A stretch of 39,494 nt of DNA from a virus (IMGVR_UViG_3300023442_000008:1-39494); one strand, 5' to 3'. Positions 5,085-39,494 are shown, numbered from the stretch's first letter. Notes: generated by a model not told the origin, from the sequence alone. Numbers and translations: made by a program.

Positions 5085-5972
5085 CTACTCCTTTATCCAC
5101 AGTATTTCCCTTCTCTTTAACCGGTCACCAGATAGGCTCTTTCCCTTTAACCCAGAGCCCTTGACCCTACCTACCGCATTACAAGCCATGCCTTTACTGG
5201 TTCGCCGCCAGCCTTCCCGCTCCAGCTCCCTGTAAAGCGGGTGGTCGTACCCGGACACAACGGCTTTGCCTTTTATACCCAGAAGTGTTTCCACCAACCT
5301 TTGGTGGTACTCTTCCGACGTCTCGCAGTCATAATAGTTGCTCGATTTCCTAACGCTTGGCGGGTATGGTGGGTCTATATAGAAAACGGTTGTTGGACCG
5401 TCCCACCGAGTTATGCAGTCAATACCGTCTACACTGTCTATGTAAACGCCAGACAGTCTTTCGTGCCAAAACCGCAGTAGCTGTTTACGTCTGACCCAGC
5501 TTTCCGCGTTTGAACGCTTAGTGCTCCGTCCCCAATCCCCGTCACAAGAGCACCTACCGGAAAACCCTTGGTTATAAGCCACCATAGCGGCCCATGCCTT
5601 GTCCACCGCTGAAGCGTTTTCATCTAGCAGAATTCTGCGCGCTTTCTTGAACTCCCTGTAGCTATACGGGGTCCAAGTCAAACGGTGGGCCAGTTCCCAA
5701 AACGTCTTTGGGTTTTGCATGACTCGGAATAGGTTAATCAAAATACCGTCCCGGTCGTTTATGACTTCAACTGGCCACGGCTCTTTAGCGAATAGTACGG
5801 CGGCACTACCGCAAAAGGGTTCCACGTAAACCTCGCCTTGGGGTAGATAAGACACAATCCATTTGGCGATTCTGTTTTTGGCTCCAAACCACCGAACCAT
5901 CGCAGTAAAGCCTTTGTCTTTCGGCGCGTCTTGCAAGAACTCACACACAAGTTGTTTGCTGCTGACTCGCAT
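5085..5972 (-). CDS. dam: DNA adenine N6-methyltransferase, D12 (Dam) class
   Basis: A SAM-dependent enzyme that methylates adenine N6 in a short DNA target, commonly used by phages to evade host restriction. It has 295 residues, normal for the class. Hallmarks in order: RWFGAKNRIA at 27-36, motif I VEPFCGSAAVLF at 50-61, INDRDG at 71-76, a central target-recognition region with YNQGFSGRCSCDG, catalytic DPPY at 200-203 and the late GYDHPLY strand. The start at 5972 lies five bases after the terS stop and has no strong Shine-Dalgarno, so coupling or a start at Met25 (5900) is possible. No cognate restriction enzyme is nearby. Target specificity (GATC or other) cannot be read. Confidence 0.92.
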   Translation of the reverse strand: MRVSSKQLVCEFLQDAPKDKGFTAMVRWFGAKNRIAKWIVSYLPQGEVYVEPFCGSAAVLFAKEPWPVEVINDRDGILINLFRVMQNPKTFWELAHRLTWTPYSYREFKKARRILLDENASAVDKAWAAMVAYNQGFSGRCSCDGDWGRSTKRSNAESWVRRKQLLRFWHERLSGVYIDSVDGIDCITRWDGPTTVFYIDPPYPPSVRKSSNYYDCETSEEYHQRLVETLLGIKGKAVVSGYDHPLYRELEREGWRRTSKGMACNAVGRVKGSGLKGKSLSGDRLKRREILWIKE

Positions 5973-12586: not shown

Positions 12587-12660
12587 TGGGTCGGGAGGGA
12601 CTCGAACCCCCAACCAACGGATTATGAGTCCGCTGCTCTTACCAGTTGAGCTACCGACCC
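12587..12660 (-). tRNA. tRNA with CAU anticodon (elongator Met or Ile2)
   Basis: A 74-base cloverleaf folds perfectly on the minus strand: acceptor GGGTCGG/CCGACCC, D stem GCTC/GAGC, anticodon stem GCGGA/TCCGT with loop CTCATAA, five-base variable loop and T arm GGGGG-TTCGAGT-CCCTC. The discriminator is A and CCA is not encoded. The G1-C72 pair argues against an initiator tRNA. CAU could read Met, or AUA as Ile if TilS modifies it to lysidine; E. coli elongator Met and Ile2 tRNAs share this anticodon loop, so identity stays open. The 5' end shares one base with the TAG stop of the upstream gene. Confidence 0.95.
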
Positions 12661-25509: not shown

Positions 25510-25533
25510 TACTGTACGCGGTGGTTTTACAGA

Positions 25534-25568
25534 CTGGCCGACCGAAATGGTCGGCCGGTTTTTATTTT
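25534..25568 (+). terminator. Strong intrinsic terminator between convergent blocks
   Basis: A 10-pair stem (25534-25543 with 25549-25558, CTGGCCGACC/GGTCGGCCGG, one wobble) with loop GAAAT, then TTTTTATTTT. It ends the plus-strand block. The stop codon of the convergent glycosyltransferase lies within its T-tail, and the A-rich flank could let it act weakly in the other direction. Confidence 0.9.
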
Positions 25569-26497
25569 AGGCCGTTGTCACGCAGAATAGACAGCATTCT
25601 CTCAACCCGCTTCGTGTATGTGTAATCCCTACCGCAGCGGTCAAAGGCCGCGCGCCGGGCCCGTTCTCTTTTTTCGTCGTTTTCGAGCCACTCGTCTATG
25701 GCAGCGAAGAGGCTTCTAAAACTGGTGTACGGCGGGGTGGCTCTTAAAAACAAACCGATTTCAGTTTCTGGTTCGAACTCGGATTCGATACCAGCGATAA
25801 CTGGGTGTAAAAGGAAGCCGCCACGGCCAGTAACCTCATAAACTCGGTTAGACCAGTAGAATGGGCTTGGGTGGCTGTCACCAACGACAATTTTAACTCG
25901 GGAAAGTATACGGTTGAGCTCTAAACCGCGCTTGTTCTGGATCAGTATGAAACGGTGCTTGTACCGCCTGCACAACGCGCATAGCAGCGCAGATCGGTAT
26001 TGCTCGCTTGGGTGCCCTTTCACTGAACCGACGAAGCATACATCGAATTCGTTAGTCGGCTCGTAAAAGACGTGTTCTGGTTCGTGTATGCCCTGTCTTA
26101 AGACGTAGTGCTTTATACCGGCCCGTTCCCATTCCCAGTCGTGACCGCCGTCGGTTGAAAACACGATATGGCACAGCTTAGCTTGTATTGGAAGCCGCCG
26201 TTTAAGCCCAAAGTACAAATCCCAAAGCCAGCAGACGGTTATTACCCCCCGCTCATGACACCAAGGTATGAACTCGGAATAAAGCTGTTCCTCGGGTTTG
26301 CTGAATAAAACGAATTGGGGTTCAGTTTCGCGGACCAGTTTCTGTAAGGCGACTAGCTCCTGTCGGTACGTAGGTCGGGTGATACCGTTAGCCACAACGC
26401 AGTAGCGGAAGACGGTAACGCCGACTTGCTGAAGAGCGTACTCAACATAGGTCTCTGTTGAGTGTGGAATAAACTTACCAAGAAATAAACACCGCAT
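25562..26497 (-). CDS. CgeB-like glycosyltransferase (GT-B fold)
   Basis: A 311-residue protein resembling the CgeB/Glyco_trans_1_2 group. The N-terminal half has a Rossmann start (MRCLFLGKFIPHST) and FVLFSKPEEQLY. The C-terminal nucleotide-sugar domain has the family phrase VVGDSHPSPFYWSNRVYEVTGRGGFLLHPVIAGIE, followed by the acidic EPETEIGLF. It should transfer a sugar from a nucleotide-sugar donor; sugar and acceptor are unknown. It is the last gene of the modification cluster, starting three bases after the FkbM methyltransferase, behind CGGAGCCC. Confidence 0.8.
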   Translation of the reverse strand: MRCLFLGKFIPHSTETYVEYALQQVGVTVFRYCVVANGITRPTYRQELVALQKLVRETEPQFVLFSKPEEQLYSEFIPWCHERGVITVCWLWDLYFGLKRRLPIQAKLCHIVFSTDGGHDWEWERAGIKHYVLRQGIHEPEHVFYEPTNEFDVCFVGSVKGHPSEQYRSALLCALCRRYKHRFILIQNKRGLELNRILSRVKIVVGDSHPSPFYWSNRVYEVTGRGGFLLHPVIAGIESEFEPETEIGLFLRATPPYTSFRSLFAAIDEWLENDEKRERARRAAFDRCGRDYTYTKRVERMLSILRDNGLK

Positions 26498-26499
26498 AG

Positions 26500-27126
26500 C
26501 TAGGGCTCCGATTTGTGCTTGTATATGACGTCACGGTGGGTACCGTGGTTGTTGTACTCACAGCACAAAACGTAGCCGAGACGTTTGAGGTAGTTATCAA
26601 GCTGTCTAAATGTTGTCCAGCCGGGCATAGGGGCTTTGTCTCTGACTTCCAGATTGAGCCATTTGACGCGCCCGCTCGCCATTAGCTGTGGTCCGCTTTG
26701 CAACGCGGGTAGTTCATAACCCTCTATGTCTATCCAAAGCAGTATGCGGGTTGGCTTGCCGGCCCATAAATCAAATTTGTCCAAACTCCATACTTTCGCG
26801 GTGGCGGCGGCCCGCGCCTTTCCGGCTTTAAAAACGCTTGCCGAGCCTAGATTACTTGTTCCCCCTTTTAGATAGAGAGTTACAGAACCAACCCGCTCAG
26901 GACCGATTGCGACTCTTATGAGTTTGCCCGGAAATACATCTTTGAGCTTTCTGTAGGTTTCGGGTAAAGGTTCACAACCAAACAGCTTCATTCTTGGATA
27001 GTGCTTCTTTAGCGTGAGCCACTCTGTTTTCGTCCCGACGCCAATATCATACATTGCGTCTGGGGACCCCGTTATAAAGCGGCATACAACGCTTTCCAAC
27101 TTTTCCCGCTGGGCGGTTCTGTTCAT
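26500..27126 (-). CDS. FkbM-family methyltransferase
   Basis: A 208-residue SAM-dependent O-methyltransferase-like protein. Motif I region MYDIGVGTKTEW, motif II FGCEPLPETYRKL and the family signature LLWIDIEGYELPALQSG are all present. FkbM enzymes methylate hydroxyls of sugars and polyketides and often sit in glycan clusters. The start overlaps the upstream glycosyltransferase stop (ATGA). In context it probably caps or tunes a glycan made by the neighbouring transferases. Confidence 0.85.
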   Translation of the reverse strand: MNRTAQREKLESVVCRFITGSPDAMYDIGVGTKTEWLTLKKHYPRMKLFGCEPLPETYRKLKDVFPGKLIRVAIGPERVGSVTLYLKGGTSNLGSASVFKAGKARAAATAKVWSLDKFDLWAGKPTRILLWIDIEGYELPALQSGPQLMASGRVKWLNLEVRDKAPMPGWTTFRQLDNYLKRLGYVLCCEYNNHGTHRDVIYKHKSEP

Positions 27127-28190
27127 GACCGTCTGTCCGCTTTGGTTAAACCCTTAACCAAGCTGACCTTAGCTGCTTTCGACTTTTCCGGCTTACCGTA
27201 TAGGATCAACTCACGTATGGATTCTGCGTGCCTACACCAAGCCCGTTGTTCGGCCCACCAACGGGCGGACAGACTATCCTGCGTTATGTCCAGACCCAAA
27301 ATGCCTTTGCATATACCCACCAGACTCTCCGCACTTGGTAGGTACCAAGCAACGTTTCTGGCGACCCGCTTGATCGTCATGTTTGCCGGTATGCGTCTTA
27401 TAGCCGGGTACTCATTCCACGGCTGACCGTTCGTCGAAATGACCGGCATACCGGAAGCCATTGCTTCCATAGGCTCAAGGCCGGTTCCGTCAACGCTATG
27501 CGGGCAAATAAGAACGTCTCCGTCATCATAAAGCTTGGTGTTGTCTTCGATTTCGCCCAAGACGACAAGGTTTTCGCCGACCGCCCAATGCAGCGGTACC
27601 TGGGTGCGGACAGTAAGTGGCATTTCCGGCCAGAGCTCTAAAGCGCGCCGTATAACGGAGGCGCCTTTTCTGCCTGCCCAACCGCCGTGACCGTTTATGA
27701 AGAGGAATCGCCCACAGTGGGTGCGTTGCTTGAACTCAAACTTATCGACGTCCACTGGCCACGGGTAATAAACACAGGGAAGCTCATCCCTGTAAAGATT
27801 AAATGATTGCCGCGTCGGGCAGATAAACAAGTCGACATAGTCCAGCCATATGCCGTGCTTCCTTTCGGGGGTCCACTCAAGGCATAAGATGCATACGACG
27901 CGTTTGCCTTTGCCTTTAGCTCGGCGGGGCAGCTCACTGTAGTATGGAGTTTCATCGAACAAGACGACGTCGACGGAATCCAGAAAGTCGTTGATTTTGT
28001 CGAGACTCTCTAAACCGGATTTAGGTCCAAACCGTATTTCCTGGCAGTCTACGTCGTCGGGAACGGGGAGAGTCTTGTAGACGCGGTGTTGGACTATAAG
28101 CCATTTATGAGGCTTTATGTATTTAGCCAGCTGTCTATTCTTCTCGCCCAAGCCCGACGCCGTGTTGAGTCCAATCAACCCGATTTTCAT
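27123..28190 (-). CDS. Glycosyltransferase, GT-B fold (GT4-like)
   Basis: A 355-residue protein. Starts MKIGLIGLNTASGLGEKNRQLAKYI, a usual GT4 acceptor-side Rossmann entry with a Gly-rich loop, and carries FLFINGHGGWAGRKGASV and the donor-site phrase DGTGLEPMEAMASGMPVISTNG, whose E-x7-E-like spacing is seen in retaining GT-B enzymes. I start at the ATG at 28190, behind GGGAGTGGG. It lies between the GT-A-like transferase and the FkbM methyltransferase in one operon. Confidence 0.85.
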   Translation of the reverse strand: MKIGLIGLNTASGLGEKNRQLAKYIKPHKWLIVQHRVYKTLPVPDDVDCQEIRFGPKSGLESLDKINDFLDSVDVVLFDETPYYSELPRRAKGKGKRVVCILCLEWTPERKHGIWLDYVDLFICPTRQSFNLYRDELPCVYYPWPVDVDKFEFKQRTHCGRFLFINGHGGWAGRKGASVIRRALELWPEMPLTVRTQVPLHWAVGENLVVLGEIEDNTKLYDDGDVLICPHSVDGTGLEPMEAMASGMPVISTNGQPWNEYPAIRRIPANMTIKRVARNVAWYLPSAESLVGICKGILGLDITQDSLSARWWAEQRAWCRHAESIRELILYGKPEKSKAAKVSLVKGLTKADRRS

Positions 28191-28191
28191 T

Positions 28192-28902
28192 TTACCCACT
28201 CCCGCCGTTCAGTAGTTTCAAAGCATCAAAATTCTCTCCCGGAAAGCTTGGTGCCAGCGACCGCTTCTTTTTGCCCATAGTGCTTATGCCTACGCCGGTA
28301 TGCTGCACCAAGGACGGCATATGGACATATTCCCTGTAACCAGCGTTTTTAAGGGACACGACAACGGCACCATCAACCGCTTCCCAACCACGGTTCAAAT
28401 CAGTCGGCTTGGTTACCATATGGTCGGAGCTTAACAGGTCTATGACGGCGTCTCTGTCAAACATCAAAGCCAGCGCCCCTAACCCTTTTTGGTTGCTCTG
28501 ATACCAGCCTACATAGTTCGGGCTCGGAACACACTCCTGGTTTTGCGGGTATGTGTATAGGTTAAAGTATGCTTTTCTAGCCGGATAAGAACAACGCTCT
28601 AGGTACTGCCTTAGGTTTCTGCAAGCGAGTATATCGTCTTGAAACAGGATATACCAACGCGAAACCGGGTTTCTAACGTATAGCTCCCATAGGGCCAAAA
28701 CCCAGTTAGCGAAGGTCTTAACGACTGGATACCTGGCCGTTACTTCCAGACCAAACCGTTTTGATATGGATTCGGCACTACGGACTCCGTCGACAAAAAG
28801 GCGCGGTTTGTCGAACCCGGCCCGTTTTAGGGACTCGAGGGTTCGCGGCAGCGTTGTGTTAAGCCTTTGGCTGACAGTTATGACTCCGTAGGCCCAGCTC
28901 AT
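28192..28902 (-). CDS. GT-A-like glycosyltransferase
   Basis: A 236-residue protein: YGVITVSQRLNTTLPRTLESLKRAGFDKPRLFVDG at the N-terminus is a GT-A nucleotide-binding start; YILFQDDILAC at 84-94 holds a QDD in the DxD metal-site position; the later DRGWEAVDGAVVVSLK-like segment is common in GT2/GT25-type enzymes. I start at the ATG at 28902, which overlaps the upstream stop as ATGA; the longer frame to 29025 is antisense-like. Donor and acceptor unknown. Confidence 0.75.
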   Translation of the reverse strand: MSWAYGVITVSQRLNTTLPRTLESLKRAGFDKPRLFVDGVRSAESISKRFGLEVTARYPVVKTFANWVLALWELYVRNPVSRWYILFQDDILACRNLRQYLERCSYPARKAYFNLYTYPQNQECVPSPNYVGWYQSNQKGLGALALMFDRDAVIDLLSSDHMVTKPTDLNRGWEAVDGAVVVSLKNAGYREYVHMPSLVQHTGVGISTMGKKKRSLAPSFPGENFDALKLLNGGSG

Positions 28903-29180
28903 GACCCGCAGGCCCTGTTTATAGCCTCTTCGACTAACTCTCTTGCTGCCTTTTCGGCAAACCGTTTGAACATGGTGGTGAGGGACCAGAGCAAGGTGTC
29001 CTGCTTGGCCCCCTGAACGAGCCACCGGACGATTATGTCTACGTTATCCCGGCACCAGTCGCAGCCGAGGGCGTCCATAACGGTTGCCCTGTTTTTACAG
29101 GCGCAATCATCGGTGGGTTTTATTCCGTAGCGCTCTTCTATGAGTCGTTTGAGTTCGGTACCGGGTTTGCCACTTTTCAT
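28899..29180 (-). CDS. Stand-alone copy of the Cys-rich DWCR module
   Basis: A 93-residue protein whose segment PGTELKRLIEERYGIKPTDDCACKNRATVMDALGCDWCRDNVDIIVRWL closely matches residues ~84-128 of the PRTase-HAD fusion two genes upstream. Shared marks: PGTELK, DCxC, MDALGxDWCRxN. The four Cys (C-x-C and later Cys) could bind metal. The start overlaps the sulfotransferase stop (ATGA). Function unknown; it may be a docking or carrier module shared by the cluster. Confidence 0.75.
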   Translation of the reverse strand: MKSGKPGTELKRLIEERYGIKPTDDCACKNRATVMDALGCDWCRDNVDIIVRWLVQGAKQDTLLWSLTTMFKRFAEKAARELVEEAINRACGS

Positions 29181-29815
29181 TCGGCCGGCTCCGTCGGATA
29201 GCCAAATCTACGTATGTCGTCTGCAAAGTGGTCCTGAACCCAACGAACGCATTTGGAGGTCCACTCCACTTTGCCGGACCTTTTCGCCGCATTGATTTTC
29301 GGCAGTTGGGCGTCTTCCGGCAAGCCTAATATGCCTCTTATTTTAGACCAGTTTTCATTTAGCTGTTCGAACTTAAACGGTTCAATGCCCAAGTCGCCCC
29401 CGCCCGGGCTGAGACAGAAGTGGTACCACAGACCTTCGCCGTCGGACAAAAAGCCGAAATGCAGCGGCACCCAGTCACAAAAGGGGTTTCTCATAGCCGC
29501 TTCCGCCTCCTTGCGTATGGGTAGTGGGACGGCGTTCCCGGCTTCCTGGTAAAGCTGTCTCCAAAAGAAGTAGGTACTCGGTATAACGGTCCAGGGGCTT
29601 CTGATGACGGCAAACTTCTTTACCGCATACCAATCTGGGATCATCGGGAAGACGTCGACGGCTCGGGTATGTCGGCGCCACCGGTATGGTCGGTCGCACA
29701 TTTGAATCAAATAGACGTCGTTGGGTCTTCGGTGTCGCATGTAGACAGTTTTTATAGAAACGCCCGCCGTGCGCGGGATATGAATAAACAAGTGCTGTCC
29801 AGGAGCGTAGATCAT
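29177..29815 (-). CDS. Sulfotransferase (PAPS-dependent, Sulfotransfer_2-like)
   Basis: A 212-residue protein. The 5'-phosphosulfate-binding loop is HIPRTAGVS at 12-20 (family form HIPKTAG), the 3'-phosphate site is VIRSPWTVIPSTYFF with R72 and S80, and H49 in RRHTRAVDVF is a candidate catalytic His. Enzymes of this group sulfate hydroxyls of sugars using PAPS. I start at the ATG at 29815 behind GGGAGG; the frame upstream overlaps the PRTase-HAD gene. A sulfotransferase in a phage late operon is unusual and points to sulfated glycan on virion or host. Confidence 0.82.
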   Translation of the reverse strand: MIYAPGQHLFIHIPRTAGVSIKTVYMRHRRPNDVYLIQMCDRPYRWRRHTRAVDVFPMIPDWYAVKKFAVIRSPWTVIPSTYFFWRQLYQEAGNAVPLPIRKEAEAAMRNPFCDWVPLHFGFLSDGEGLWYHFCLSPGGGDLGIEPFKFEQLNENWSKIRGILGLPEDAQLPKINAAKRSGKVEWTSKCVRWVQDHFADDIRRFGYPTEPAE

Positions 29816-31239
29816 GTTGGCCTCCCGTAACACTTGCCGGTTGTCGGACAAACCACTAAGCCTCCGGACAAGTCAGCTATCCGTTGAGCCTGGTAGTCGT
29901 CGCTTTCTATAAATATATGGGGAGGAGGGTTTACTGGTCTATGCAAAAACTGCCTATAGGTTTCGGCTTTTATCTGCACAACACGGTCAAAAGACCGTTG
30001 AGCCTTGTTTGGTGCGTCGTACATAACGAGCATCCCGTATGACACACCCCACCGCCTTAGCCACTCGTCGGTTTCTTTTCTGTATTTCTCCAGCCTGGCT
30101 GTTACTATGATGGGAACCCTCCCGCGCCTAACCAGGTACTTCGGTTTGACCGTTTTGAGCCACTCCATATAGGCCGGCCCATCATCGTCTTTGTCGGGCG
30201 GACAGTCTTGGCAAAGAACGCCGTCCATATCGGTGACGATTGACGGTAGCAGGACCGAATTAAAAAGGTTCCACTCAAGCAAGTGCGGCCACGGGAGTTC
30301 CGTGACAAACAAGTCCGGTTTGCTACCGGCGGCTGGATTGCAGTAGATAGAGGCGTGTATGACGGTATAACCGGACTTCCTATACGGCGTCAAGGCTTCT
30401 CGGGCCGCGCGAACGCTGTTACCGGTCATGGTAGTGTCGTCAATGACGACCAGGGAGCCCTTTTTTGGCAACGGGTTTGTCGACGTCTCAAGTCTCCAGC
30501 CGGCTCCTGGGTTGTATATTTGACGCCTTTTTGGGTCAAGGATGTAAAGCGGTCTATGTAACAGCATGGCAACCAAAGACGCTGGTAGCACCCCGGACCG
30601 CGCTACGCCTACGACGATCGAGACGTCTGGCGGCAGCAACTGGACCAGCGCAGAAGCGTTTCGGATTAGCTCCTCGGTTTTTATAAAGCGTATACCAGCG
30701 ACGGCACCGACACGAAACCAACCGGCGTTAACCAGCTTTGGCTGGCTCCTTCTGTGCTTTCTTTCCGCTTTTGCTATGGCTATTAGGACTATGCGTTTGG
30801 CAACGGCCCGGACAAACGGTATATGACGCTTCTTGGCTTCTACATGCATTACGTCAAGGATTTGTTCTATGTTCTGTCGACACCAATCTGGGCCCAGCGC
30901 GTCCATTCTGGCGGCCATATCCCGACAGCCGCAGTCGGAAGTGGCGTGTATACCGAACTTGGCCAGCAGATTTTTCAACTCGGTACCTGGGAGCGGCTGT
31001 GTTTGGTGGATTGTGTCCGGTAGTTCCGGCTGCCAGCGTTCGGGTGTATGAGGTATGTTCGGTTTGACGACGGGACTTGGGTGTTCCGCTAAAATCAAAT
31101 CTATTTCCCCGTCAGAGTAGCCCCATCGCTTTAGATAGGTACGGCGTATTTCCGGCGGTATGGGTCTACCACGTTCGTCAAAACCCATACACATTGCCCG
31201 CTGAACGCCGACCAGTTTGTTGCAGTCTATACCCTTCAT
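29812..31239 (-). CDS. Fusion: Cys module + phosphoribosyltransferase + HAD hydrolase
   Basis: A 475-residue multidomain protein. Residues 1-65: small domain with C6 and C17 (GIDCNKLVGVQRAMCMG). Residues ~84-160: the DCGC...MDALGPDWCR module. Residues ~178-318: type I phosphoribosyltransferase, with VVGVARSGVLPASLVAMLL and PRPP loop LVVIDDTTMTGNS (263-275). Residues ~333-460: HAD phosphatase-like domain with D337 and D339 in VTDMDGVL, motif II T380 in IIVTAR, K424, and motif IV ESDD at 445-448. All key residues of both enzymes are present. Chemistry: transfer of phosphoribose from PRPP, then removal of a phosphate. Substrate unknown. It follows the four-module structural gene and is closely coupled to the sulfotransferase. 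Confidence 0.82.
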   Translation of the reverse strand: MKGIDCNKLVGVQRAMCMGFDERGRPIPPEIRRTYLKRWGYSDGEIDLILAEHPSPVVKPNIPHTPERWQPELPDTIHQTQPLPGTELKNLLAKFGIHATSDCGCRDMAARMDALGPDWCRQNIEQILDVMHVEAKKRHIPFVRAVAKRIVLIAIAKAERKHRRSQPKLVNAGWFRVGAVAGIRFIKTEELIRNASALVQLLPPDVSIVVGVARSGVLPASLVAMLLHRPLYILDPKRRQIYNPGAGWRLETSTNPLPKKGSLVVIDDTTMTGNSVRAAREALTPYRKSGYTVIHASIYCNPAAGSKPDLFVTELPWPHLLEWNLFNSVLLPSIVTDMDGVLCQDCPPDKDDDGPAYMEWLKTVKPKYLVRRGRVPIIVTARLEKYRKETDEWLRRWGVSYGMLVMYDAPNKAQRSFDRVVQIKAETYRQFLHRPVNPPPHIFIESDDYQAQRIADLSGGLVVCPTTGKCYGRPT

Positions 31240-34200
31240 TTACGGATACCTATGCAACCGTGGGTAACCTTCGGGAGGCAATCTGTCGCAAGGAATTGTA
31301 AAGTACGGGCTAAACTCAGAACAGCAGGTCCAATGCCGACATACGTCTCCGGGTCTTGGGGGAGCACACTGCAAACAGTTGTCTCCCTGACTTACCAAAA
31401 CCCAACTCCCGTCTTTTTGTTGTTCCCATTGACAGTCTTTTAGAGAAAGATCGGCCGCAAACCGAACACCCGTTTTCCTGCCAGCCTTTCCCTTTATGAC
31501 TAGCTTGAGTCTATTCTCCCCTTGGACGAAGCCTTCACATATTTCTATTCCGTGCGTCAATGACGACGTCCACGTTGGGACGAGAAACATTGATTCCAAT
31601 ACTTGTATGCCAGTCGATATACCGTTTATTTCAATGTCCAACAGCTCTGAATCAACAGACAAACAACCGAAAAGCTTAACATCTTGGGGCCGTTTATTGA
31701 TCCAAAACGTCGTTTCGGCTGTCCATATAGTATCTTCCGTGAGTTCCATGTTTGAACAATCGGGCGCCGGTTTTATCGGAGTTATCCAGTCTTGGCCAAA
31801 CCCCGGACCGAAGCGGACGCCATACCAGTCTATATCGGCGCACTGAGAACCGGCTACGTAGTTGCCCCAGGCAACATCGTACAGCGCGCTGTCGTACGGA
31901 CCGGTTCCCTCAGTGCGCGTTATTTCCCCGGTATAGAACAGGCCCCAATAGCGCGTCTCGTCTAACAGAGGTATGTAAGGTCCGTGGTCGCAACAAGTAA
32001 ACGCTATAGAAACTCCTATACGACCCCAGTGGCTGCAGTAAAGAAGACAATCGTTAGTACCGTCGCAATTGACCACGCTGACGTCTATACGGTTGACGTC
32101 GTCGTCTTTTAGAACGGTAATCGGTATCTTTAAAACGACGGGCCACTCAATCCACGGCGGCAGACCTTGTGTGCTCCGCGTTTTCAAGCACCTTGGCGGG
32201 ACGCCTGGCGGTACCAAAGGCCTTGGGAGGAATTCCTGACCGTTGACTTTAAAAGACGTCAAACGGCCGTCTGCGTGGATTAGAGCGTAAAAGAACGGGT
32301 TTGACGCTCGACATAGTTGCTCTTCGCTCACGTACCACTCTACTTCAAAGGTGTGCTCCTCAATCTTGTCAAACATCGGGTCTACCGGGTCGCATACTAG
32401 GCTTATCCAACGCGAACCCGGTAATGGCGTCCAATAGCGGTCGATGCAAACGTCATCCCACTCAGTCGGGGCCCAAGCTGGGTTTCCGCCGTCCGACGTC
32501 CAGTAGTAGTCCATTAAGCATTGGCATTTGTCAGCATTTTCCGGGTGTTGTCTAGGCAGCTGACTCTCGGGTATATTAACGGGGCGTACCAAATACACAC
32601 CTGTGTTTGGCGGAGCTACGCAACACTCTGCGGTTTGAAGTTCGTCCGGGCAGCAGTAAAACTCGAACCGCAGACCAGTCGGACCTGCGGAACCGCAGTC
32701 GAATTTGCGGTTTAACACCGTGATTTCTATCGTGTTTATGCCTTGCTTAAAAATGCCGGACACAACGCTCGGAGGCAAAGCAAAGTAGTGCCAGCCAGTG
32801 AAACCGCTATCTGTAGAGTCGCATAAAGCCCCGTCCGGGTAAACCAGGGATACCGGCAGAATCTGATCGTTGATTTTGAGAGTCTGCAGCTCGCCGTCTA
32901 CCAGGAACCGACCGCCAAACGCTACCCGGTCTAAACCGCTTGGGTCTACTGGAATGTTCCACTGGGCCCTATAGACATAGGAGCCTTCCGGTTGGTCGGT
33001 ATAACCGCCGTCTGGAGCGCTCGTTATCCAGTTCGAGTCCGGGCTAGCACCATTGGGCAGCCAGTTCGCGCTGTGGGTCCAAGCGATGTAGGCTTTTGAG
33101 CCGTTGACGGTCCAACTGGCGTCAAGTGAGGAATCACTTGGGTCGGGTTGCCCAGTATTTGGCGGTGTCGGGAGGCAGAGTTCGTTGCGTTTGTGCCATA
33201 CGGTCGGCGGGTTTGTTTTGACCAGCTTAAGCGGGCAGGCGAATTCCATACGCAAGCCGACGGGCCCGCCTCGGTTGCGAACAGCGACGACCAACGTATT
33301 GTCGTTTGGATAAGGCTCAAAAACCGTGGTAGGAGGTGAGACACCGGCTATAGTAAAGTTCTCAACGTCTGCAATAAAGTAATGCCAGTCCTCGTATAGG
33401 TCCCGAGGGTCTTCGGCGGATTCGCCCCTTGGGCAAGCAGCGTCTAAAGCCTCTTGTATAACCGGCATATCAAAGCCGTTGATCGATAGAGAAACAATGT
33501 CTCCATCGACGACGAACCGACCGTGCATATCCGTAATAGACCCAACTTCGTCGTTCGGGTCTAGGTTGGGCATTTTCCATTTGCAACGGAAATAGTAAGT
33601 GCCGGCCGGTTTTCCAACCCGAAGAGCGTCTTCGCTAATTGTGATCCAGTGTGAATAAGGCGAAGCATCTGGAGCTAAATGGTCGCGCTGGACTTCAGCG
33701 CGGCGCGTCATGACATAGGCTTGTTCCCATTTGCCGGTTTCCGGGTTGTAGAACTCCCAGTATAGGTCGCGGTGGTACTTGTCTGGGTCAAGGTTGGCGC
33801 CTGTATTTGGAGGCAAGTCAAAGCACGGCGCGGCCCGAACGGCCTTATAGCCGGTAAACGTGGCGTCTAGAGTTAAAACTCCTTGCCAGCAACATTCATC
33901 GAACGGCGTTAAATCGATTTCCCATTTCCAGTCTTCTATGCAACAGCGATTGTTTGGAATGGGGAGCTTTAGAATCTTGTCTCCTACCCAGCCCATTGCG
34001 GGCCAGGCTATCTTTAGGTAGCACCGACTCTCTTGCTCGTACAGGCCGGTGCTTTCTCGAACGAACCACGCCGTTATACGGTCTTCTGGCAGCTCACCGG
34101 GCCGCGCGTAGACGCCAAAGTAGCAGTCCCAGTAAAGATAGGTCGTTATAGGCTCAAAGATGCAGGGTTGGGTCTTGGCAATATCTGGGTATAGGAAGTC

Positions 34201-34322: not shown

Positions 34323-35087
34323 TTAAACCCTAATTGTCGTCTGACACGGGTCATAGACACAGAAGGACGTAACCACCCAACAGCAACCGGCGCAACATTC
34401 ATGCGTTTGGAAACCGTATAGCGTTAGGGTGTCATCGTCAATACACTCGTCTGGATCAACTAAGTCGTATACGTTGGTGACGGCCGTCATATAGGTGGCC
34501 ACGCCTCTTCTGTTTATAAGCAGTTCTGGAGGGACATTGAAGAAACAGCCGAGCCTATCGTAAATCTTTAAAGGACTTTCCGGCGTAGCTCCGCCGCAAG
34601 TTACGTATAAAGCGTTTCCCCAAACCCATTTGCAGGAGGAACCGCCGGACGGAACGTCAACCACTTCAAAGATTATCTGCTTGGCGTCAGCCGTAGATGT
34701 TTCGGCAACCCAACGGCCGAACTTGTCCCGCTTTATGACAATAAAGGTGTTGCCTGGTATGCTGGACGGAGTTGGGTTAAAGACGCGAACGCCGGAAACG
34801 GGAAGTTTGGCCAGTCTAAGCCGGCTCATGCTGTCGTAAACGGCTTGGTATAGGTCGCAGATTGCACTGTGCATGTAGTAGACTGACCCGGACGACTCAA
34901 TACCCTGAATGCCGTTTTCCGGCGTCCGGGCCAAATAGACTTCCGGCGCTTGGTGGTCTTCTCTATCGAGCCAGCCGAGTTCGGTCGGGACTTTTGCGCT
35001 AATATTGAGCCTACCCTGCTTGAACTGATCCAGCAGGTCCCTCAGTAGTTGCGCGTCATCTTCGCTTAACGCTATTAACCTCGGCAT
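34323..35087 (-). CDS. Structural protein with Cys-rich C-terminus
   Basis: A 254-residue protein in the tail operon. The N-terminus is helical (LSEDDAQLLRDLLDQFKQG), then a beta region, and the last ~50 residues hold a Cys cluster (ECCAGCCWVVTSFCVYDPC) echoing the Cys-rich ends of the downstream four-module protein. It also shares the PPELLINRRG-like beta phrasing of virion proteins. A tail-tip partner of the next gene is the simplest reading; no family recognised. Confidence 0.6.
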   Translation of the reverse strand: MPRLIALSEDDAQLLRDLLDQFKQGRLNISAKVPTELGWLDREDHQAPEVYLARTPENGIQGIESSGSVYYMHSAICDLYQAVYDSMSRLRLAKLPVSGVRVFNPTPSSIPGNTFIVIKRDKFGRWVAETSTADAKQIIFEVVDVPSGGSSCKWVWGNALYVTCGGATPESPLKIYDRLGCFFNVPPELLINRRGVATYMTAVTNVYDLVDPDECIDDDTLTLYGFQTHECCAGCCWVVTSFCVYDPCQTTIRV

Positions 35088-36552: not shown

Positions 36553-39494
36553 TCACGCCACTCCCAACACGTCGAGTTCGACGGTAGGTTTCTTTACTTG
36601 CTCGGTTTGCAGCTCTATAAGCTGTTGCAACCGTTGGTTTATGTTTTTCAGCTCATTCGTGCTTTGTTTGAGCAGCGCGGCACCTTCGGCGGCGGCAACG
36701 GCTTGGCCTGGTATTAGCGGTTGACCCGGGGCGACAGAACCGGGCAGCTGCGGACCCGGGGCGCCGGTATCGACGGGCCCTATGACGCCTTCCGGCTTCT
36801 TTTCGGGCCTGACTGGGAACGGCGGCACTTCCGGTATTTCTTCCGGCTCCACCGGTTTTAGCTTGACGCGCACAACCCGTTTTGCTTCGCGGAACTCTCG
36901 AAGTCTGGCTAGAGCTTCCGCCGTTCCGGCTTCGACCGCTTCAACGCCGCGCACGCTTAATTCAAGCGTATAGTCTTTGTTAAGCTGGTCTTCGAGTTCC
37001 TTAAGCGCCTTTTTGTATGTCTCTTGGCTTATGTAACCGGCTTTAAAGGCAGCCGCGAGTTTCTTTTGCTCTTCCCTGATCTTGTCCATTGGGTCCCTAA
37101 ACCGTTCCGTGACTCGTTGGGCGTACTTGAATAGGTCCACGTGTTTTTGCACGGCCGTTACATAGGCCACTTGCTCGGCGGTGGCGCCTTTCATATACAG
37201 CTTGTATTCGAGCAATTCGGTTTTGTTGAGCCCGAGCGTTTCATATTGCTCCCTGTAGGTTTCAAGCGTTCTTTCTATTTCCTCCCGGGCCCTTTCAGCC
37301 TCTTGGGCGGCTTTCTTTTGGGCCTCGGCCTCTTCAAGCTTCATACGGCGCCACTCCGCGGCGGCCTGCAGTTCTTTAAGTTTCTCCTCTGAAAGCCCCT
37401 GTAGCTTCAGCTTATATATTTCGGCCTCCTCGGCACTCATGCCAGCCGTTTCGGCTTCCAACTTCCATTTCTTTATCAGCTCGTCGGCTTGGATAATCAG
37501 GTCTTCGGCAACCTTTTCTGGTTTGACCTTTTCTAGAGCCTCGTCGACTTGCTCCAATTGTTGCTCAAGCACTTCGAGCCGCTTTTTGGCCTCGTCGAAT
37601 TCTTGCTGGGCTATGGCTCTGTCGGCCGTGAACCACCAGGACTTTTGCAGCCGCTCTTTAGCCGACCTAAACTGCGCCTCGACCCCGGCTATTTCTTTTG
37701 TCAGCATATCGCGCAGCTCTTTTAGCTCGCGCCGCCGTTTCGGTATGTCTTTGATTTCAATTATTTCCGAGAACTCCCTCCTAAACCGACGGTCCAACAC
37801 CTTAGATATTTCTTCAGTTAGCTCGGTACCGCGCTCGACTTCTCTGTTGTATTGCCTCCAGTATTTGACAAGTTTGTAGCCGAGGTAGCCAGCAACTAAA
37901 GCCAAAACTGCGGCCAAAGCGCCTAAAGCCACCGTAAGAGCGCCTGCGGCTCCGCCGGCGGCCACAAGACTGCTGACACTGGAGCCCAAAACGGTCTTTA
38001 AAGCCCCAAAGCCTCCAAGCAAGCCCAATATTTTAGCTGCCAACCCGGATATACCCGTACTGGCAGCCGCAGCCCCTACCGCCGTTTCGCCAGCCAAAGC
38101 GGCGCCGGCGGCGGTGGCCGTTTTTGCGACGCGCGCTTGGGCAGCAGCTAGAGCGTTTGTCGCTACAGCCGCCTGTGTGGTGGCCGCCGTATAAGCTTCC
38201 GTCGCAAACGTCGCTTGGGCTTCGGCTAGGGTTTCGGCTTTCGTGGCTGCGGTCGCTTGCACAGTAGCGGCTGCTTTGGCTTCCGTAGCTATGGCTGACG
38301 CGGTAATAGTCGCAGTATGGGTCGCCAAAGCGACAGTTTGTTTGCCGATGAGCGACAGAAGCCTGACGAAGCCCGCTATAGCATTTTTAACGGCAACGGC
38401 ACCAAGCCGGATAAAGCCCGCTATGACTGCTTTTAGGTTAATACCGAGTGCCTGGAAGCCGGCCGATATGGAGGCAATCTTAAACATAAAGCCTCCTAGG
38501 CCTCCTATAACGCTTCCGGCCACGGTTCCGAACCCAAGAAAAGCCGCTGCGGCCTTTTTGACCGGTTCGGGTAGTGTCTCGAAGTTTTCCATTAGTCTGA
38601 TCAAGAACTTAAGGAACTTCGAGACAACCGGAACGGCTTCCTGGCCTATTTGCCTCATCAAAATGTTGAAGTTGTCCGTAACCGTAGACCAAAGGCCTAA
38701 GAGCGAGCGCGATTGTCTTTCCGTCATGTTGTAAAACCGCTCGCCCTCTGAAGACAACATTTTAAGCGTGCCGCGCAAGTGCTCGAAGGTGACCTTACCT
38801 TCGGACATAAGTCGTTTGAACTCCGCCACCGAGACACCCATAAACTTGGCTATATCCTTTTCGGTGACGATCATGCGAGTGCTCAACTGGCGGAAGTCTT
38901 GCATCAAAAGACGACCGGCACCTCGGACTTGGTTGTAAATCAGTGCCAATAAACCGAAGTCTGTGCTGGTGGCGGCAGCCGCATTGCCGAGCATTTTGAG
39001 CGTTTTGATCAGCTCACGCCCGCGCTCACCGGCCTGCATCAATTGGCCGGCTGCCGCGAGAATCTGCGGCATTGTAAAGGGTGTCTCCGCAGCGTAGCGG
39101 GTTAGATCGGAAAGGGTTCTTCTAGCCTCTTCGGCCGAGCCGAGGAATGTCTCGAACGCTATGGTAGTTTGCTCGAAACGCCCGGCCGATTGAAGAGCCA
39201 TATAGCCTATACCGCCGAAGACGCCGGAAATAATGGCGCCGACAGCCATTAAATTGTTGCCTATGGTAGACAGCTTTTGGCTTAAATCCGTTGTTGCCTG
39301 GGAAGCGGTCAGAATCTGTTGTTTGGCCTTGCTGACGGCCCGGTTGAATGTTTCTTGCGATATGGCCCCGGCTTCGAGAAGCCTCTTGAGGTAGGCTACG
39401 CGTTCGTTATACCGTTCTGTCTCTGTCATAACGGAGCGGGTTATAGCCGCTCCTTCCCGCATAATCTTTTCGCGCTCGGCTTCGGCTTTGGCGA
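36553..39494 (-). CDS. Tape measure protein (partial, runs off the window)
   Basis: Sets tail length and helps DNA entry. At least 969 residues from the first in-window Met at 39462, but codons upstream (AKAEAEREKI) stay open to the edge, so the N-terminus is cut off. The N-terminal domain has the tape measure signature FEQTTIAFETFLGSAEEARRTLSDL and the FRQLSTRMIVTEKDIAKFMG region. Hydrophobic helices occur near residues 72-92, 310-335 and 505-535. An Ala/Thr-rich run and long Lys/Glu coiled coils follow. A motif near the start (LEAGAISQETFNRAV) recurs near the C-terminus (FKAGYISQETYKKAL). It is the most upstream late gene seen. Confidence 0.93.
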   Translation of the reverse strand, partial: AKAEAEREKIMREGAAITRSVMTETERYNERVAYLKRLLEAGAISQETFNRAVSKAKQQILTASQATTDLSQKLSTIGNNLMAVGAIISGVFGGIGYMALQSAGRFEQTTIAFETFLGSAEEARRTLSDLTRYAAETPFTMPQILAAAGQLMQAGERGRELIKTLKMLGNAAAATSTDFGLLALIYNQVRGAGRLLMQDFRQLSTRMIVTEKDIAKFMGVSVAEFKRLMSEGKVTFEHLRGTLKMLSSEGERFYNMTERQSRSLLGLWSTVTDNFNILMRQIGQEAVPVVSKFLKFLIRLMENFETLPEPVKKAAAAFLGFGTVAGSVIGGLGGFMFKIASISAGFQALGINLKAVIAGFIRLGAVAVKNAIAGFVRLLSLIGKQTVALATHTATITASAIATEAKAAATVQATAATKAETLAEAQATFATEAYTAATTQAAVATNALAAAQARVAKTATAAGAALAGETAVGAAAASTGISGLAAKILGLLGGFGALKTVLGSSVSSLVAAGGAAGALTVALGALAAVLALVAGYLGYKLVKYWRQYNREVERGTELTEEISKVLDRRFRREFSEIIEIKDIPKRRRELKELRDMLTKEIAGVEAQFRSAKERLQKSWWFTADRAIAQQEFDEAKKRLEVLEQQLEQVDEALEKVKPEKVAEDLIIQADELIKKWKLEAETAGMSAEEAEIYKLKLQGLSEEKLKELQAAAEWRRMKLEEAEAQKKAAQEAERAREEIERTLETYREQYETLGLNKTELLEYKLYMKGATAEQVAYVTAVQKHVDLFKYAQRVTERFRDPMDKIREEQKKLAAAFKAGYISQETYKKALKELEDQLNKDYTLELSVRGVEAVEAGTAEALARLREFREAKRVVRVKLKPVEPEEIPEVPPFPVRPEKKPEGVIGPVDTGAPGPQLPGSVAPGQPLIPGQAVAAAEGAALLKQSTNELKNINQRLQQLIELQTEQVKKPTVELDVLGVA

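Follow-up and report, generated by a model that had tools for sequence, protein, structure and literature searches.

What does a tailed phage, so far seen only in metagenomes, make with a set of sugar-modifying enzymes encoded right behind its tail genes, and is the product placed on its own virion or on the surface of its host? The question arises from seven minus-strand genes (25562-31239) in a 39,494-base virus sequence, the whole of which we refer to as the window. They come after the tail genes for the tape measure and a Cys-rich protein, and are transcribed in the order PRTase-HAD, sulfotransferase-like, 93-aa gene, GT-A-like, GT-B, FkbM methyltransferase, GT-B. We propose, with a probability of about 0.5, that they form a late operon that puts a short glycan on the phage's own tail protein in the host cytoplasm. 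The features concerned are as follows, in order of transcription.

36553-39462, minus strand: tape measure protein (PHROG 9959, E 4.3e-50)
34323-35087, minus strand: tail-region protein encoded ahead of the Cys-rich gene, with homologues in L002, L003 and L008/L009
31240-34299, minus strand: Cys-rich tail-region protein, 1019 aa with 45 Cys (4.4%), candidate acceptor
29812-31239, minus strand: PRTase-HAD fusion with N-terminal Cys modules, 475 aa (PF00156; PHROG 415 for HAD; PDB PRTases by sequence and fold)
30757-30993, minus strand: four-helix 'PGTELK/CxC/MD..G..WC' domain within PRTase-HAD (residues 83-161), aligned with the standalone copy and relatives
30250-30693, minus strand: type I PRTase core (about residues 183-330), PRPP loop VVIDDTTMTGNS
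29824-30249, minus strand: HAD phosphatase domain (about residues 331-472), with DxDG, T, K and ES motifs
29177-29815, minus strand: sulfotransferase-like protein, 212 aa (PHROG 3347, E 5.7e-6; Pfam Sulfotransfer_2, 0.073)
28899-29180, minus strand: standalone four-helix Cys domain, 93 aa, a second copy of the domain inside PRTase-HAD
28192-28902, minus strand: probable GT-A-type glycosyltransferase, 236 aa, FQDD kept; relatives in glycan islands (L009, L093, L094)
27123-28190, minus strand: GT-B glycosyltransferase (Pfam PF13692, E 1.6e-9, and PF00534; weak WbaZ match in PDB)
26500-27126, minus strand: FkbM-type O-methyltransferase (Pfam PF05050, E 3.7e-13)
25562-26497, minus strand: GT-B glycosyltransferase, Glyco_trans_1_2 (Pfam PF13524, E 1.6e-15; PHROG 28745)
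25531-25561, no strand assigned: hairpin directly 3' of the last stop codon (z = -4.4 to -5.0 against shuffles)

Elsewhere the window encodes a DNA methyltransferase (5085-5972; PHROG 56, E 1.5e-57) and a tRNA-Met gene (12587-12660).

The tight minus-strand coupling behind the tail genes that was originally predicted is confirmed from the DNA, with ATGA overlaps at four of the seven junctions: PRTase-HAD/sulfotransferase at 29815, sulfotransferase/93-aa gene at 29180, 93-aa gene/GT-A at 28902 and GT-B/FkbM at 27126. At the other junctions, the TAA of the Cys-rich gene (31240-31242) abuts the ATG of PRTase-HAD (31239) with 0 nt between them, FkbM and the last glycosyltransferase gene are 2 nt apart, and the GT-A and GT-B genes are either separated by 1 nt, if ATG 28190 is the start, or overlap, if it is GTG 28199. 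Overlaps of this kind suggest co-expression. The hairpin, which was scored on the plus strand in the scan and is followed by a T-run on that strand, is a probable transcription terminator. The overlaps and terminal hairpin, taken with the enzyme families and gene neighbourhoods described below, support a late, co-transcribed, glycan-decorating cluster.

The families assigned to the cluster hold to differing degrees. Profile matches recover both GT-B enzymes and the FkbM methyltransferase strongly (PF13524, PF13692 and PF05050) and the PRTase and HAD domains moderately; the sulfotransferase match is weak, and the third glycosyltransferase named in the original prediction matches no family. The sulfotransferase-like protein has no PDB match; PAPS-site-like motifs, HIPRTAGVSI and VIRSPWTVIPSTY, can be picked out by eye. 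No match to the 28192-28902 protein was found in Pfam, PHROG or NCBIfam, and its probable GT-A type is read only from the gene context of four relatives and an FQDD motif conserved among them. Adjoining one relative is a phage island (L093:9711-18119) with genes that by eye are GmhA-like, heptose-kinase-like, nucleotidyltransferase, UDP-glucose-dehydrogenase-like and FkbM (GDP-heptose-type). At L094:7057-9708, after a Cys-rich tail gene, lies a chimera in which an N-terminal module resembling the one on the window PRTase-HAD is combined with a GLGD module; a 2OG-Fe oxygenase-like gene and then the GT-A relative follow.

The composition of the first enzyme in the cluster points to its likely activity. 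Its PRTase domain matches PF00156 with E 5.9e-6 (26.1 bits, just under the curated cut-off of 26.3), and its HAD domain is matched through a polynucleotide-kinase PHROG (E 2.8e-7). In alignments of the phage proteins with bacterial PRTase-HAD sequences, D268 and G273 of the PRTase and D337, D339, T380, K424 and E445 of the HAD domain are invariant; the PRPP loop DDTxMTGNS is kept in all six aligned phage members (DDTTMTGNS in the window) and is degenerate in some bacterial relatives. The AlphaFold model of the full-length protein is poor (pLDDT 60). A PRTase joined to a HAD phosphatase is a known ribofuranosyltransferase design: bacterial gPRT-PRP enzymes transfer ribose-5-phosphate from PRPP, after which the HAD domain removes the phosphate (PMC11127046), and Bcs3 of Hib is a ribofuranosyltransferase with both a PRTase and a HAD phosphatase domain (PMC10299916). 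The phosphoribosyl step, which the original prediction did not know in this combination as a described phage system, thus has bacterial precedents. Our best prediction for the phage protein is a PRPP-dependent ribofuranosyltransferase that would place ribose on a glycan, an assignment drawn from domain logic and context rather than from detected homology to a characterised enzyme; in a PRTase-HAD profile search of the PDB, the characterised Bcs3 enzymes were not among the best 60 chains listed, which are mainly nucleobase PRTases. The best of these matches are to purine, xanthine and orotate PRTases, as would be expected if the protein made a nucleoside-like small molecule or salvaged a base, unrelated to any glycan and adjacent to sugar genes only incidentally. 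Such fold matches are nevertheless expected for any type I PRTase, and in many phage loci, as well as in the bacterial loci examined, the neighbouring genes are those of sugar and methyl transfer and not of nucleotide metabolism; we regard a nucleoside or salvage role as improbable.

The phage neighbourhoods were drawn from 52 viral loci at which a widened profile found PRTase-HAD, accompanied variously by Methyltransf_24, CTP_transf_3, sulfotransferases, GT8, GLF, UDP-Glc dehydrogenase and FkbM. The viral proteins fall into two groups, one with N-terminal Cys modules, of at least four kinds, and one without; the genes of the module-less group are embedded in broader glycan islands that also carry GT8, GLF, UDP-glucose dehydrogenase, sulfotransferase and FkbM genes. 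In the N-extended group, 20 of the 23 loci that could be evaluated have a Cys-rich gene immediately upstream, against a background of 44/593 (about 4-7% for other genes; binomial 4e-20 to 4e-25, with shared ancestry ignored), and sugar or methyl enzyme genes follow in 16 loci. To this extent the grouping is conserved in other phages, as the original prediction required, while no other locus was found with precisely these seven genes. In the tree, whose inner forks are only partly resolved and in which the window branch is long, the window protein belongs to a supported 18-member group; all 18 carry N-terminal modules, and the module types are interspersed, so that repeated changes of module type are needed. 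At five loci (L103, L108, L109, L115 and L123) PRTase-HAD is followed by a GPSA-motif protein and a CMP-sugar-synthetase-like gene, a pair that possibly serves nonulosonic-acid transfer.

The partner genes differ strongly from phage to phage, and the fetched loci contain no relatives of the window's two GT-B genes, both of which would fit a loose collection of accessory genes without a single product. Against this, the position of PRTase-HAD is conserved, only a few kinds of gene occur downstream (Methyltransf_24 in 11 loci, the CMP-sugar-synthetase-like CTP_transf_3 in 5), and the gene overlaps speak for co-expression, making a loose collection very unlikely. PRTase-HAD itself may not always be part of a glycan pathway: no modification genes were detected downstream of the module-bearing L124 and L129, nor of L121, L122 and L125, the last three lying near contig ends.

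Outside these viral loci, relatives covering both domains are encoded on alphaproteobacterial plasmids (tblastn, query L091). In Rhodobacter and Bosea the bacterial PRTase-HAD lies among LPS/EPS genes, and in Rhizobium its neighbours are a glycosyltransferase gene and the gene for a T6SS VgrG. On the Rhizobium plasmids L097, L101 and L102, a caspase-like gene, PRTase-HAD and a glycosyltransferase stand upstream of the gene for the VgrG tip, which may be a parallel case in a machine resembling a phage tail. Sequenced phages gave no DNA-level match to the window and no tblastn match for the window PRTase-HAD or the 93-aa protein, and scans of GTDB genomes with the phage PRTase-HAD alignments, which rely on exact short peptide patterns, found none.

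A probable link between the sugar enzymes and the tail is provided by the 93-aa protein, the seventh gene of the cluster, which was missing from the title and description of the original prediction. It consists of a four-helix domain of about 78 aa that is also present within PRTase-HAD and was found at 257 viral loci in one scan; 51 aligned members have P-G-T, L-K, C-x-C and further residues in common. AlphaFold2 predicts four helices (pLDDT 83), with no fold match in the PDB (best E 3.1), and no convincing Pfam or PHROG model was found among the 51 members (best E 0.0013). With one member as a tblastn query, there were 0 matches in 50,697 sequenced phages and 72,556 plasmids. A bacteriocin identity for the 93-aa gene was rejected, the NCBIfam aureocin match (E 0.02) lying under the cut-off. 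The domain is mostly a small separate protein, and a Cys-rich gene lies no more than two genes upstream in 36/58 cases, against 36/566 for other genes. In L010, L024 and L027 it is joined to a stretch of protein with about 15% Cys. On the enzyme side it occurs as a fusion with PRTase-HAD, with a GT-B whose gene comes immediately behind a Cys-rich one (L131) and with a GT2-type protein (L154). At L127:3690-5789, a poly-Ser protein stands beside a glycosyltransferase-like protein with a weak four-helix copy, followed by GLF and PRTase-HAD. In the cultured Nonlabens phage P12024L, the related GLGD-CxxC module (L099:5971-6330) adjoins terminase and not tail genes, so that tail docking may not extend to all modules.

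By its position, the 1019-aa Cys-rich protein is the candidate glycan acceptor. It has no Pfam or PHROG match, and no homologue was detected in the relatives' loci, though a Cys-rich gene holds the same place there. It had been described as four-module: similarity between modules 1 and 2 is clear (191 against 32 +/- 6 for shuffles), that between 2 and 3 is weak (73 against a shuffle maximum of 62), and a fourth module is unsupported.

In the scheme that we consider most probable, the two GT-B enzymes and the probable GT-A enzyme, all cytosolic, would assemble a chain out of nucleotide sugars supplied by the host. Onto this chain the PRTase domain would move 5-phosphoribose from PRPP, and the fused HAD domain would take off the 5-phosphate to leave ribofuranose, with the product O-methylated by FkbM and sulfated by the sulfotransferase. 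The four-helix Cys domain, carried on PRTase-HAD and also encoded alone, would bring the enzyme to the tail. Between the two targets first suggested, the virion or the host surface, we infer the virion, mainly because one domain is common to tail-region proteins and sugar enzymes. Alteration of the host surface polysaccharide, in serotype conversion or superinfection exclusion, would be in keeping with the bacterial relatives in LPS/EPS loci, with the well-known serotype-conversion glycosyltransferase cassettes of phages, and with a phage-borne pentofuranose system proposed for seroconversion (PMC11127046). However, the cluster encodes neither a membrane flippase nor a polymerase nor a lipid-carrier enzyme, its genes are joined to the tail genes and not placed apart, and PRTase-HAD carries the domain common to tail-region proteins. 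Nor do any of the cluster proteins have predicted transmembrane segments (PRTase-HAD peaks at 1.88, within the PRTase core), which fits cytoplasmic protein glycosylation and speaks against a gtr-type surface pathway. We therefore consider a host-surface target rather unlikely and tail glycosylation the favoured reading.

More broadly, and more tentatively, many uncultivated tailed phages may direct PRPP-based ribofuranosylation, together with other sugar, sulfate and methyl transfer, to the tail through an uncatalogued Cys-containing docking domain common to Cys-rich tail proteins and glycan enzymes, with modules repeatedly exchanged around a constant core. The four-helix Cys domain would be a new family to name.

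To our knowledge, glycosylation of phage virion proteins is known in only a few systems. Among these are the mycobacteriophages Che8 and Rita (Freeman et al. 2023, as cited in PMC11256854); the cluster resembles what is cited of them in its phage glycosyltransferases, predicted here to act on virion proteins and grouped in the window with structural (tail) genes, and differs by PRTase-HAD, the sulfotransferase, FkbM and the shared tail-region domain. With gtr serotype-conversion cassettes it has phage-encoded sugar transfer in common, whereas the membrane flippase and membrane glycosyltransferase that define those cassettes are absent, with 0 predicted transmembrane segments. Three-component pentofuranose systems comprise a UbiA-type synthase, a MATE flippase and a GT-C, with one phage example reported (PMC11127046); they are alike in deriving ribofuranose from PRPP with a HAD phosphatase, as predicted here, whereas the window enzyme is soluble and has a type I PRTase, not a UbiA-type one. 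The literature searched yielded no description of a soluble, PRTase-HAD-type ribofuranosyltransferase from a phage. There is also a likeness to the bipartite enzymes of gPRT and HAD phosphoribose phosphatase, which also include CriT-CrpP of the H. influenzae type b Bcs3: here, too, PRTase-like and HAD domains occur together, the catalytic residues of both are intact, and relatives lie in glycan-building loci. The phage form differs in its exchangeable Cys modules and its placement after tail genes, and no sequence link to the characterised enzymes was detected among the PDB chains listed. The cluster is a variant of phage glycosylation gene sets in which a shared domain makes the target testable. 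It offers a testable tag-and-enzyme model of how sugars could be targeted to a phage tail, for which 52 loci of PRTase-HAD and over 200 of the domain are available.
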